Source: Magnetospirillum sp. XM-1
GTDB taxonomy: Bacteria; Pseudomonadota; Alphaproteobacteria; Rhodospirillales; Magnetospirillaceae
Length of the DNA stretch: 64,000 nucleotides
NCBI RefSeq assembly: GCF_001511835.1
Contig: NZ_LN997848.1
Location: 186,001-250,000 of the forward strand
Direction of reading: 5' to 3'
Positions 43,710 to 48,236 of the stretch are shown one piece after another. The translations under genes and the position numbers were made by a program. Numbering within the stretch: position 1 is the first letter of the stretch; every line of letters starts with the position of its first letter. A model generated the notes under the pieces. That model did no database searches and was not told where the DNA came from. It was given only the letters and a program-made list of their open reading frames with translations.

Positions 43710-45017
43710 ATGCGCATCGCCATGATCGGCACCGGCTATGTCGGCCTGGTGTCGGGGACCTGCTTCTCGGAATTCGGCATCGACGTGGTTTGCGTCGACA
43801 AGGACGCCGCCAAGATTGAGAAGCTGCACCAGAACGTCATGCCCATCTACGAGCCGGGCCTGGACGACATGGTCGCCGCCAACGTGGAAGCCGGCCGCCT
43901 GTCCTTCACCACCGACCTGAAGGCGGCGGTCAAGGACGCCGACGCGGTGTTCATCGCCGTGGGCACGCCGTCTCGTCGCGGCGACGGCCATGCCGATCTC
44001 TCCTATGTTTACGCGGCGGCGGAAGAGATCGCCGACGCCATGACCGGCTATACCGTGGTGGTCACCAAGTCCACCGTGCCGGTGGGCACCGGCGACGAGG
44101 TCGAGGCCATCATCAGGAAGCGCCGTCCCGACGCCCAATTCGACGTGGTGTCCAATCCGGAATTCCTGCGCGAAGGCTCGGCCATCAACGACTTCATGCG
44201 CCCCGACCGCGTGGTGATCGGCACCGAATCCGACGCCGCCCGCAAGGTGATGAAGCAGCTCTACCGCGTGCTGTACCTGATCGAGACGCCCATCGTCTTC
44301 ACGTCGCGGCGCACCTCCGAGCTGATCAAGTACGCCGGCAACACCTTCCTGGCCACCAAGATCACCTTCATCAACGAGATCGCCGATCTGTGCGAGAAGG
44401 TGGGCGCCGACGTCCACGACGTGGCCAAGGGCATCGGCCTGGACGGCCGCATCGGCAAGAAGTTCCTGCATCCCGGTCCCGGCTACGGCGGCTCGTGCTT
44501 CCCCAAGGACACGCTGGCCCTGGTCAAGACCGCACGGGATTTCGGCGCGCCGCTGCGCATCGTGGAATCGGTGGTCGCCGTCAACGACCAGCGCAAGAAG
44601 CAGATGGCCGAGCGCGTCACCAAGGCCTGCGGCGGCTCGGTCAAGGGCAAGGCCATCGCGGTGCTGGGCCTGACCTTCAAGCCCAACACCGACGACATGC
44701 GCGATTCGCCCTCGCTCGACATCGTCAAGGCCCTGATCGAGGCGGGCGCCACCGTCAAGGCCTTCGACCCCGAGGGCATGGAAGAGGCCAAGAAGCTGCT
44801 GCCGGCGTCGGTCGAATACTGCAAGGACGCCTACGCCACCATGCCGGGCGCCCATTGCGCGGTGATCATCACCGAATGGAACGAGTTCCGGGCGCTGGAC
44901 CTCAAGAAGGTCAAGTCGCTGCTGGCCGCCCCCGCCATCGTCGACCTGCGCAACGTCTACGCGCCGGACGAGATGGCCGAACTGGGCTTCGCCTACACCA
45001 GCATCGGCCGACCGTAG
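43710..45017 (+). CDS. ugd: UDP-glucose 6-dehydrogenase
   Basis: 435 aa. It oxidises UDP-glucose to UDP-glucuronate for surface polysaccharides. NAD-binding MRIAMIGTGYVGLVSG is at the start; the catalytic Cys263 is in GPGYGGSCFPKDTLAL; the C-terminal domain carries GLTFKPNTDDMRDSPS. It is followed by a strong terminator, so the galU-ugd unit ends before the island downstream. Confidence 0.97.
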   Translation: MRIAMIGTGYVGLVSGTCFSEFGIDVVCVDKDAAKIEKLHQNVMPIYEPGLDDMVAANVEAGRLSFTTDLKAAVKDADAVFIAVGTPSRRGDGHADLSYVYAAAEEIADAMTGYTVVVTKSTVPVGTGDEVEAIIRKRRPDAQFDVVSNPEFLREGSAINDFMRPDRVVIGTESDAARKVMKQLYRVLYLIETPIVFTSRRTSELIKYAGNTFLATKITFINEIADLCEKVGADVHDVAKGIGLDGRIGKKFLHPGPGYGGSCFPKDTLALVKTARDFGAPLRIVESVVAVNDQRKKQMAERVTKACGGSVKGKAIAVLGLTFKPNTDDMRDSPSLDIVKALIEAGATVKAFDPEGMEEAKKLLPASVEYCKDAYATMPGAHCAVIITEWNEFRALDLKKVKSLLAAPAIVDLRNVYAPDEMAELGFAYTSIGRP

Positions 45018-45046
45018 CCGTCTTCTTGACAGTTCATGAACGACGG

Positions 45047-45080
45047 GAATGCGGGCACATGTTGCCCGCATTCTTGTTTT
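45047..45080 (+). terminator. Terminator of the galU-ugd unit
   Basis: An 11-bp perfect stem GAATGCGGGCA/TGCCCGCATTC (45047-45057 with 45063-45073) has a 5-nt loop and is followed by TTGTTTT. Confidence 0.92.
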
Positions 45081-45120
45081 CGCCGATCATTCGTCTGAGT
45101 TGTGGCCGACGCTGGTTGGC

Positions 45121-45162
45121 AACACGGATGGACGCGGATTGGCACGGATGAACACGGATGGG
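45121..45162 (+). repeat. Left copy of inverted CACGGATG-rich repeat
   Basis: Contains AACACGGATGGACGCGGAT and then two more CACGGATG words. The first 19 nt are an exact inverted copy of 46070-46088. The start codon of the broken DUF2971 gene (45158) lies in the last word of this repeat. Confidence 0.85.
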
Positions 45163-46048
45163 CGACGAACCAAATCCCCCCGACATTCTCTATCACTACT
45201 GCAGTAACGCCGCCTTCCTCTCGATCGTCGAGAGCGACTCCATCCGGCTGTCCGACCTCAGCCTGTCCAATGACAGCCAGGAAGGACGGTGGGTCAGGAA
45301 GGTGTTCGAGGAATATTGCACCTCACATGGTGTGACGCGGGGCCATCTCGATACGGCATTATAAGATTTAGATTGGACCATAGAGATGATTGGTGCCGCA
45401 GGCTTCTGTATGGCCGAGCGGGACGACACCCTGAGCCAATGGCGGGCATATGCCGATGATGGCTTTGGAGTGGCTATCGGATTTTCTGCAAAACATTTTA
45501 TCGATGTCAGTGATATCGGCCCCAAAGATGGCTGGGGCTTTCGCCTGAGGAATATCTTGTATGAGGCGGGAGAGCAGGCCGCAGCGATATCCGAGACAGC
45601 AGATAAAATAATATCATATATAAATCAAGGCGCCCTCAAACAACAATCCAGGGGTCTGCTGGCATTTACAACAGACGCTGAATTATTAGCGACAAACACG
45701 CTTCGCCAATCAATGTGGCGAACAAACATATTTTTCCTTGGCAGCCTATACACCGTTAAAAATCCCGCATTTTCCGAAGAGGCTGAGTGGCGTCTCATCT
45801 CCATAATCGTGGGCAGAGGGGCGGAGTGGGAGCCATCATCAGACCTAAAATCCATGGAATTCCGAGCACTGCGAGATAGGATCGTCCCATTCCGGCCCCT
45901 CCCCCTTCGCCACGAGGGCCAATCGCCCATCAAACGGGTCGTTCTCGGCCCCCGCAACATCACCCCCATTCCCGTGATCAAGGGCTTTCTCGCCAAGCAC
46001 GGCCACGAGAACGTCGATGTGGTTCTATCCAAGGCATCCTATCGTTAA
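45158..46048 (+). pseudogene. DUF2971-family gene interrupted by one in-frame stop
   Basis: The first part (45158-45361, 68 codons) contains ILYHYCSNAAFLSIVESDSI and LSLSNDSQEG. The second, in the same frame (45365-46048), contains GFCMAERDDTLSQWRAYADD and GVAIGFSAKHF. Together they match the DUF2971 order: YHY, NDxxE, CFxExxDxxxQW-Y, GFS. A single TAA at 45362-45364 separates them, with no shift in frame, so this is a nonsense mutation, a sequencing error or readthrough. The biochemical role of the family is unknown to me. The region from about 45360 to 45870 is AT-richer than its neighbours, suggesting transfer. Inverted repeats flank the gene. Confidence 0.8.
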
Positions 46049-46056
46049 TCATCCCC

Positions 46057-46089
46057 TTCATCCGTGAACATCCGCGTCCATCCGTGTTA
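46057..46089 (-). repeat. Right copy of inverted CACGGATG-rich repeat
   Basis: On the minus strand it reads TAACACGGATGGACGCGGAT followed by GTTCACGGATGAA. It is a near-exact inverted partner of 45121-45152, with three mismatched bases in the centre. It lies between the broken DUF2971 gene and the GxxExxY gene. Confidence 0.85.
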
Positions 46090-46157
46090 CCCCCATCCCC
46101 GCCGTCCGCACCTCTGCATGCCGCAGAAGCAACACGGAGGCCTGAACAGGACGTCCC

Positions 46158-46544
46158 ATGCTCTCCGAAGCCGAGCCCGGCCTGAATGCACTGACCGAAC
46201 GCATCATCGGCGCGGCCTTTGCCGTGGCGAATGCCTTGGGCCATGGCTTCCTGGAGATCGTCTACCGCAACGCCCTGTTCGAGGAATTGAGCCTGACCGG
46301 TCTTGCCGTCAGGAAGGAGCAGCCCTTCCCGGTTCATTACCGGGACCGCCAGGTCGGCTTGTATGTGGCCGATCTGGAGGTGGAAGACAGGGTGATCGTG
46401 GAATTGAAGACCACCGACGGATTGGCCCAGGCCCACGCGGCGCAGGTTCTCAACTACCTCAAGGCCAGCGGCCTGCCGGTAGGCCTGCTGCTGAATTTCG
46501 GACGGCCAAAGCTGGAAATCCGCCGGGTGGTGTTGGCTAAATGA
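46158..46544 (+). CDS. GxxExxY-family protein (PD-(D/E)XK nuclease-like)
   Basis: 128 aa. It carries the family name motif in GHGFLEIVY and a nuclease-like core: Asp in VADLEVEDR, the E-x-K motif in VELKTTDG, and Q-x3-Y in AQVLNYLKASG. These residues fit the PD-(D/E)XK fold, but no cellular role is established. It is closely linked to CACGGATG-type repeats, which lie 70 nt upstream and again 1 kb upstream. The start follows AGGACGTCCC. The next gene, pgm, begins 63 nt later. Confidence 0.88.
   Translation: MLSEAEPGLNALTERIIGAAFAVANALGHGFLEIVYRNALFEELSLTGLAVRKEQPFPVHYRDRQVGLYVADLEVEDRVIVELKTTDGLAQAHAAQVLNYLKASGLPVGLLLNFGRPKLEIRRVVLAK

Positions 46545-48236
<1,692 letters not shown>

Follow-up and report, generated by a model that had tools for sequence, protein, structure and literature searches.

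The ugd-pgm interval

The locus lies in a 64,000-nt stretch of DNA (the window; C1:186001-250000) from the 4.99-Mb genome of Magnetospirillum sp. XM-1 (G000, two contigs), where the interval between ugd and pgm holds two iteron arrays in inverted orientation, a DUF2971 frame and a gene of the GxxExxY family (Table 1). The arms, at 45118-45152 and 46057-46091, match as inverted copies at 31 of 35 positions, and their longest exact run is 19 nt, AACACGGATGGACGCGGAT, which bears out an earlier, sequence-only reading of a 19-nt exact inverted repeat with about 10 further matching bases. That reading also described the bracketed DNA as lower in GC and the DUF2971 gene as broken and adjacent to a GxxExxY gene, and we observe the same: GC content is 53.3% between the arms (45153-46056) versus 66.8% in the window, the DUF2971 frame contains an in-frame stop, downstream of which it matches PF11185 (E 4.3e-11), and profile matches identify both genes. 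As for its suggestion that the repeat supplies the DUF2971 start codon, the ATG at 45158-45160 falls within the third CACGGATG of the left array, and the repeat can thus supply a start codon, although as a start this ATG is a candidate only.

Table 1. Features of the ugd-pgm interval, in window coordinates.
Feature	Position	Strand	Remark
ugd, UDP-glucose 6-dehydrogenase-type gene	43710..45017	+	left neighbour
Left iteron array	45118..45164	+	includes 35-nt left arm, 45118-45152
Iterons of left array	CACGGATG at 45123-45130, 45143-45150, 45153-45160; CGCGGAT at 45133-45139	+	
DUF2971 frame	45158..46048	+	one in-frame stop, pseudogene-like
Right iteron array	46057..46091	-	inverted
Iterons of right array	CACGGATG at 46059-46066, 46079-46086; CGCGGAT at 46070-46076	-	
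Likely remnant of a further iteron unit	46129..46157	+	just 5' of the nuclease gene; by-eye comparison with G104
GxxExxY gene (TIGR04256 / PF13366)	46158..46544	+	128 aa; profile matches, PD-(D/E)XK fold
pgm, phosphoglucomutase gene	46608..48236	+	right neighbour

Every one of the five copies of CACGGATG in the window lies inside the two arms. Their count alone is unremarkable (5 versus 4.1 expected in the window), but their clustering and pairing are unusual. Across the genome, the 18-mer CACGGATGNACNCGGATG has 86 matches with up to 3 mismatches, compared to 11 for its reversed control. No Rfam match was found at the gathering threshold in the window or in five loci.

Among congeners, the island between ugd and pgm is present in 2 of 17 genomes, G000 and G104, so that the check for empty sites proposed with the sequence-only reading finds an island that is not fixed, in favour of that reading. 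The site could be read from both sides in 12 relatives, of which G104 has the island, 4 have approximately 30-130 bp and 7 have other DNA of 0.8-1.4 kb, while in the remaining 4 congeners ugd and pgm were not together in the matches. The interval (window 45018-46607) is a variable site, occupied by the island, short intergenic sequence or unrelated DNA depending on the genome. Both window arms are retained in G104, which by eye also has a fuller F...R iteron pair 5' of the nuclease gene; the window appears to retain part of such a pair as a remnant. The DUF2971 copies of the two genomes each have an in-frame stop, at different places, and this cargo is thus decaying. Part of the window copy (45386-46048) matches phrog_1762 (E 1.9e-11) and bears a weak likeness to the PADLOC candidate phage-defence family PDC-S31 (E 0.0021).

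The GxxExxY protein

The window protein is a clear member of its family by sequence, scoring 138.9 bits against TIGR04256 (cut-off 35) and 132.3 bits against PF13366 (PDDEXK_3; cut-off 22), which is its sole Pfam domain; no HuH (Y1) domain was found. Among the 128 GxxExxY proteins aligned, E33, D72 and E82 are conserved in all, and K84 and Q96 in 127. The best match among solved folds is 4ic1; by sequence, none of the solved structures is clearly related (best E 0.29). By its residues and fold the protein belongs to the PD-(D/E)XK superfamily, and nuclease activity is predicted.

Two GxxExxY genes are present in the window's genome. The window gene begins after a 66-nt gap from the right array and has no bracket of its own, the 300 nt on either side being free of iteron arrays in the usual orientation. 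Relatives in its subclade carry CACGGAT or CGCGGAT arrays, and the genes of L045 and L058, whose proteins are 72 and 71% identical to that of the window, are both bracketed. The second gene sits on C1 in the accD-trpA interval within a 435-bp unit (L001 1460-1897) that ends in perfect inverted arrays of 28 nt, CACAGATGAACACAGATAAACACAGATG.

Inverted arrays often bracket GxxExxY genes

Of the 150 genomes searched in the order, 30 have TIGR04256. Our set of 132 loci combines the order matches with 16 further stretches, 80 named loci (the best 80 of at least 550 confirmed) and five more loci from the genus; three partial fragments among the 50 order matches (two in G073, one in G049) and L212, which is cut by a contig end, are not part of it. 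Loci from the same genus are not independent data points. For 127 of the 132 loci, the other five having too short a flank, we searched motif-blind for inverted arms in up to 250 nt on each side, with positions shifted by 1 kb within the same loci as controls. Arms scoring at least 13 are found at 83 of 127 genes versus 3 of 233 shifted positions, and at a score of at least 18 the counts are 52 and 0, respectively. The remaining 44 loci score below 13 and have no clear arms. The bracketing, together with the 86 versus 11 genome matches above, rejects a chance origin of the repeats.

The arms consist of arrays of 2-4 iterons of the form C[AG]C-N-[AG]-A-[GT], mostly 8-11 nt apart. With a regular expression for this iteron, which was built after part of the data had been seen, arrays in the expected orientation occur on both sides of 64 of 132 loci, compared to 1 of 232 shifted positions and, in the opposite orientation, 4 of 132 loci. 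Of the 64, 35 are named loci, and the 34 with a resolved phylum span 12 phyla. At least one side has an array in 101 of 132 loci, and neither side does within 300 nt in 31, including the window gene. A C precedes the outermost iteron of 88 of 128 arrays versus 14 of 232 inner iterons, which indicates that the arrays have a defined outer end. The sequence-only reading had stated that CACGGATG-like repeats often lie near GxxExxY genes; the enrichment of inverted repeats is borne out, but the motif varies by lineage. As to placement, the arms normally hug the nuclease gene, whereas here they enclose DUF2971.

The upstream array usually ends near the GxxExxY start codon. Such a position would suit iterons that act as operator or protection sites, through which the nuclease would regulate its gene or mark or guard DNA, with the dispersed copies spread only by unrelated MITEs and recombination. 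An operator would not require an inverted downstream copy, which accompanies the upstream array at 64 of 132 loci, and we consider this explanation unlikely.

The window locus is a decayed, atypical member of this wide association. Its most fitting interpretation is an iteron unit that carries cargo at a variable intergenic site, with an iteron pair of the type seen in related genes around a decaying DUF2971. The arms could instead be leftovers of two separate iteron units that landed on either side of DUF2971, which would then not be the cargo of one unit. Iteron units do cluster near GxxExxY genes (L049, L065 and L050 of G104), a second pair lies next to this one in G104, and the site is variable; however, the 31/35 match is in the orientation typical of one unit, and G104 keeps both arms. 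We regard a two-unit origin as possible but doubtful.

The iteron motif follows the protein lineage

We compared motif and phylogeny on a tree of 128 proteins, 98 of which have a motif label, leaving out four short proteins (L051, L057, L108 and L117). Resolution of this tree is poor in parts, with 52 of 125 inner branches open. The final iteron base, which is T in 25 and G in 73 of the labelled proteins, changes 3 times on it, versus a mean of 22.2 and a minimum of 18 in 200 shuffles. The period changes 23 times versus 45.8 when shuffled, and the fifth base 17 times versus 27.7.

Different motifs also occur within a single genome. G119 has four GxxExxY genes, with CACGAAG, CACAGAT, CACCAAG (on the upstream side only) and CACGAAT arrays. 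Within the genus, the relatives of each gene share its motif, with the exception of CACTAAG in place of CACCAAG in G137, and its neighbours, with the exception of the CACGAAT gene of G137, which is located elsewhere. The motif thus goes with the gene lineage and not with the host.

Gene-less units are dispersed in the genomes

Palindromic units of both kinds, CACGGATG and CACAGATG, are dispersed in the window's own genome. With the genes' own arms included, as they also are in the presence counts for CACAGAT, CACSAAG and CACRGATGNACACRGATR below, CACGAAT iteron pairs occur in only 3 of 17 congeners, which are exactly those holding that gene lineage (G119 with 12 matches, G154 with 5 and G137 with 35, of which 4, 3 and 3, respectively, adjoin the gene itself), and the reversed control gives 0 everywhere. 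CACAGAT pairs occur in all 4 congeners with the corresponding lineage and in 4 of 13 without it (G104, G153, G157 and G096; reversed control 0). For CACSAAG pairs, the five genomes that have a CACGAAG/CACCAAG-group gene (the own array being CACTAAG in G137) have 117, 67, 59, 31 and 5 matches, compared to 0-9 in the other twelve congeners except G054, with 33 (controls at most 1; Mann-Whitney p 0.005 for genomes with versus without the gene). On the scale of the order, CACRGATGNACACRGATR is found in 15 of 30 genomes with TIGR04256 versus 8 of the 120 others (control: none in 150). Among 22 named genomes of other groups, classed by the focal gene alone, the tendency is the same with one clear exception: the 14 whose focal gene is of CRCAGAG type have 3-257 CRCAGAG matches and the 8 others 0-103, with reversed controls at 0-11 per genome. 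The highest of these 8, G176 (the genome of L128), runs against the trend with 103 matches and ACAGGAT-like arms at its focal gene.

Several genomes have units without a detectable gene. The 33 CACSAAG matches of G054 are accompanied by no TIGR04256 match at all and are perhaps relics after gene loss, and G083, G092 and G108 have many T-type matches and no TIGR04256 match. Many CACGGATG iterons are seen in G083 and G092, several of them in everted pairs (reverse then forward, 84 bp apart). Genomes of this kind, the existence of gene-less units and the enclosure of DUF2971 rather than the nuclease by the window arms are what one would expect if the arrays were the ends of an unknown transposon, moved in trans by another enzyme and with GxxExxY merely as frequent cargo. 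The motif, however, tracks GxxExxY phylogeny, and cargo would leave unexplained why different GxxExxY genes of one genome have different arrays; we therefore give this reading little credence.

To group the dispersed units by their flanks, we used 47 loci from G000, G119 and G131, of which four are one-sided and were left ungrouped. Of the 43 two-armed units, 27 share a larger flanking repeat. Many copies thus travel within other MITE-like repeats, and the iteron system is less active than raw copy numbers would imply. The shared repeats fit the spread by unrelated MITEs that goes with the operator or protection reading, but the other 16 units fall into 15 separate groups with unrelated flanks, and four G131 units are bare, 69-76 bp long and in unrelated intergenic places, which speaks against it. 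L276 (G119 C1:397-1562) is an iteron unit nested in another: by eye, the inner one lies within a larger repeat whose outer ends resemble CCACTGCTGTCCGGTTTAAATT, with a possible direct repeat GCTTGTC around it. Similar outer ends surround several G000 units.

Genes stay in place while units turn over

GxxExxY genes are single-copy within each lineage. In the 11 genomes compared, paralogs of the same genome are at most 62% identical and no near-identical copies are present, and multi-copy spread of the gene is therefore rejected for these genomes. For three lineages the neighbours are the same in every genus genome compared, for the CACGAAT lineage in 2 of 3, and the window lineage keeps its own in G104. 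With the L001 protein as query, the family is rare on plasmids (8 of 72,556 records), and viral contigs hardly contain it, with 1 locus; carriage by phages and plasmids thus looks minor.

The accD-trpA unit is found with its gene in 4 of 17 genomes (G000, G158, G147 and G119). In G137, a gene-less CACGAAT unit occupies the site in place of the gene-bearing one, and the unit is absent in the other 12 genomes, including G096, whose left flank is 96% identical. The GxxExxY genes at this site are 61-82% identical versus 82-92% for their neighbours, which makes repeated arrival at one site possible.

Six sites were queried for filled and empty MITE junctions, and five could be aligned. Three of the units are present only in G000 among the relatives shown, a fourth is common to G000 and G054 and missing in G158 and G153, and at the fifth, G000 has a unit of CACGGAT type whereas the one in G158 and G054 is of CACGAAG type. 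No target-site duplication was seen at the five aligned sites, where filled sites bring extra DNA and the element boundaries are not clean; this, too, would be in line with iterons as operator or protection sites.

A proposed role for the nuclease

The reading we favour, with moderate confidence, is that GxxExxY is a small, stationary, Cas4-like nuclease that recognises lineage-specific tandem iterons and spreads or maintains the units in trans. The iterons flank the GxxExxY gene as inverted arrays, and they also lie at the two ends of short palindromic units that carry no gene. The nuclease would bind arrays of its own lineage's iterons, would nick or trim them where they end on the outside, usually at CCAC, and may thereby propagate or maintain the units in trans, in the way proposed for RAYT transposases and REPINs. 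The sequence-only reading had proposed an unrecognised mobile or domesticated unit in which the nuclease acts on the repeats, an idea that is partly supported and proves right in outline and wrong in detail.

A bolder version, which we put forward only tentatively, is that GxxExxY is the sole protein of an ancient and widespread form of minimal selfish DNA, with the 435-bp unit in the window's own genome as an example, in which the nuclease reads the iterons of its lineage by means of an evolving protein-DNA code and causes scattered palindromes of CACAGAG, CACGAAG and CACAGATG type to spread; such elements would stand apart from DDE transposons and HuH REP systems. If true, the favoured reading would assign a function to an orphan nuclease family that occurs in many phyla, would explain short intergenic repeats for which the literature searched holds no description, and would offer many natural nuclease-repeat pairs for reading and testing a DNA recognition code.

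Comparison with known systems

The families TIGR04256 and PF13366 are defined by protein sequence only. We found no description of flanking repeats for the GxxExxY/PDDEXK_3 family in the open-licence papers searched, PMC8934634 among them. Open-licence matches to longer iteron-repeat strings are unrelated by title, and the literature search with CACGGATG was little informative.

Cas4 is defined by four cysteines that hold an iron-sulphur cluster. Compared with Cas4 and RecB-type nucleases, the window protein contains no cysteine and thus has no Cas4-type cluster, and the scans identified no CRISPR genes at the window locus.

Like MITEs and insertion sequences, the iteron units are short intergenic elements with inverted repeats, and the 435-bp unit consists of one gene with inverted ends. 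They differ in that the GxxExxY gene never occurs in several near-identical copies in the genomes compared and in that the window protein has no known transposase domain. As noted, no target-site duplication was seen at the five aligned sites, where element boundaries are unclear.

The closest likeness is to the REPtrons formed by RAYT (TnpA-REP) and REPINs, which, as described in PMC3116915 and PMC8266576, combine a stationary gene with dispersed, short, palindromic, non-autonomous units and co-evolution of repeat and protein. GxxExxY similarly is a stationary gene with matching palindromic units dispersed between genes, and cognate palindromes both beside the gene and dispersed are an analogous feature across the family, with the bracket missing at the window gene. 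The differences lie in the enzyme, a predicted PD-(D/E)XK nuclease rather than the HuH (Y1) enzyme of RAYT, and in the units, where 2-4 tandem iterons with an outer CCAC form inverted arrays in place of GTAG-tagged hairpins. As a nuclease of another superfamily, GxxExxY is not a member of the RAYT-REPIN system; if the proposed mechanism holds, GxxExxY and its iterons would work like one by analogy.
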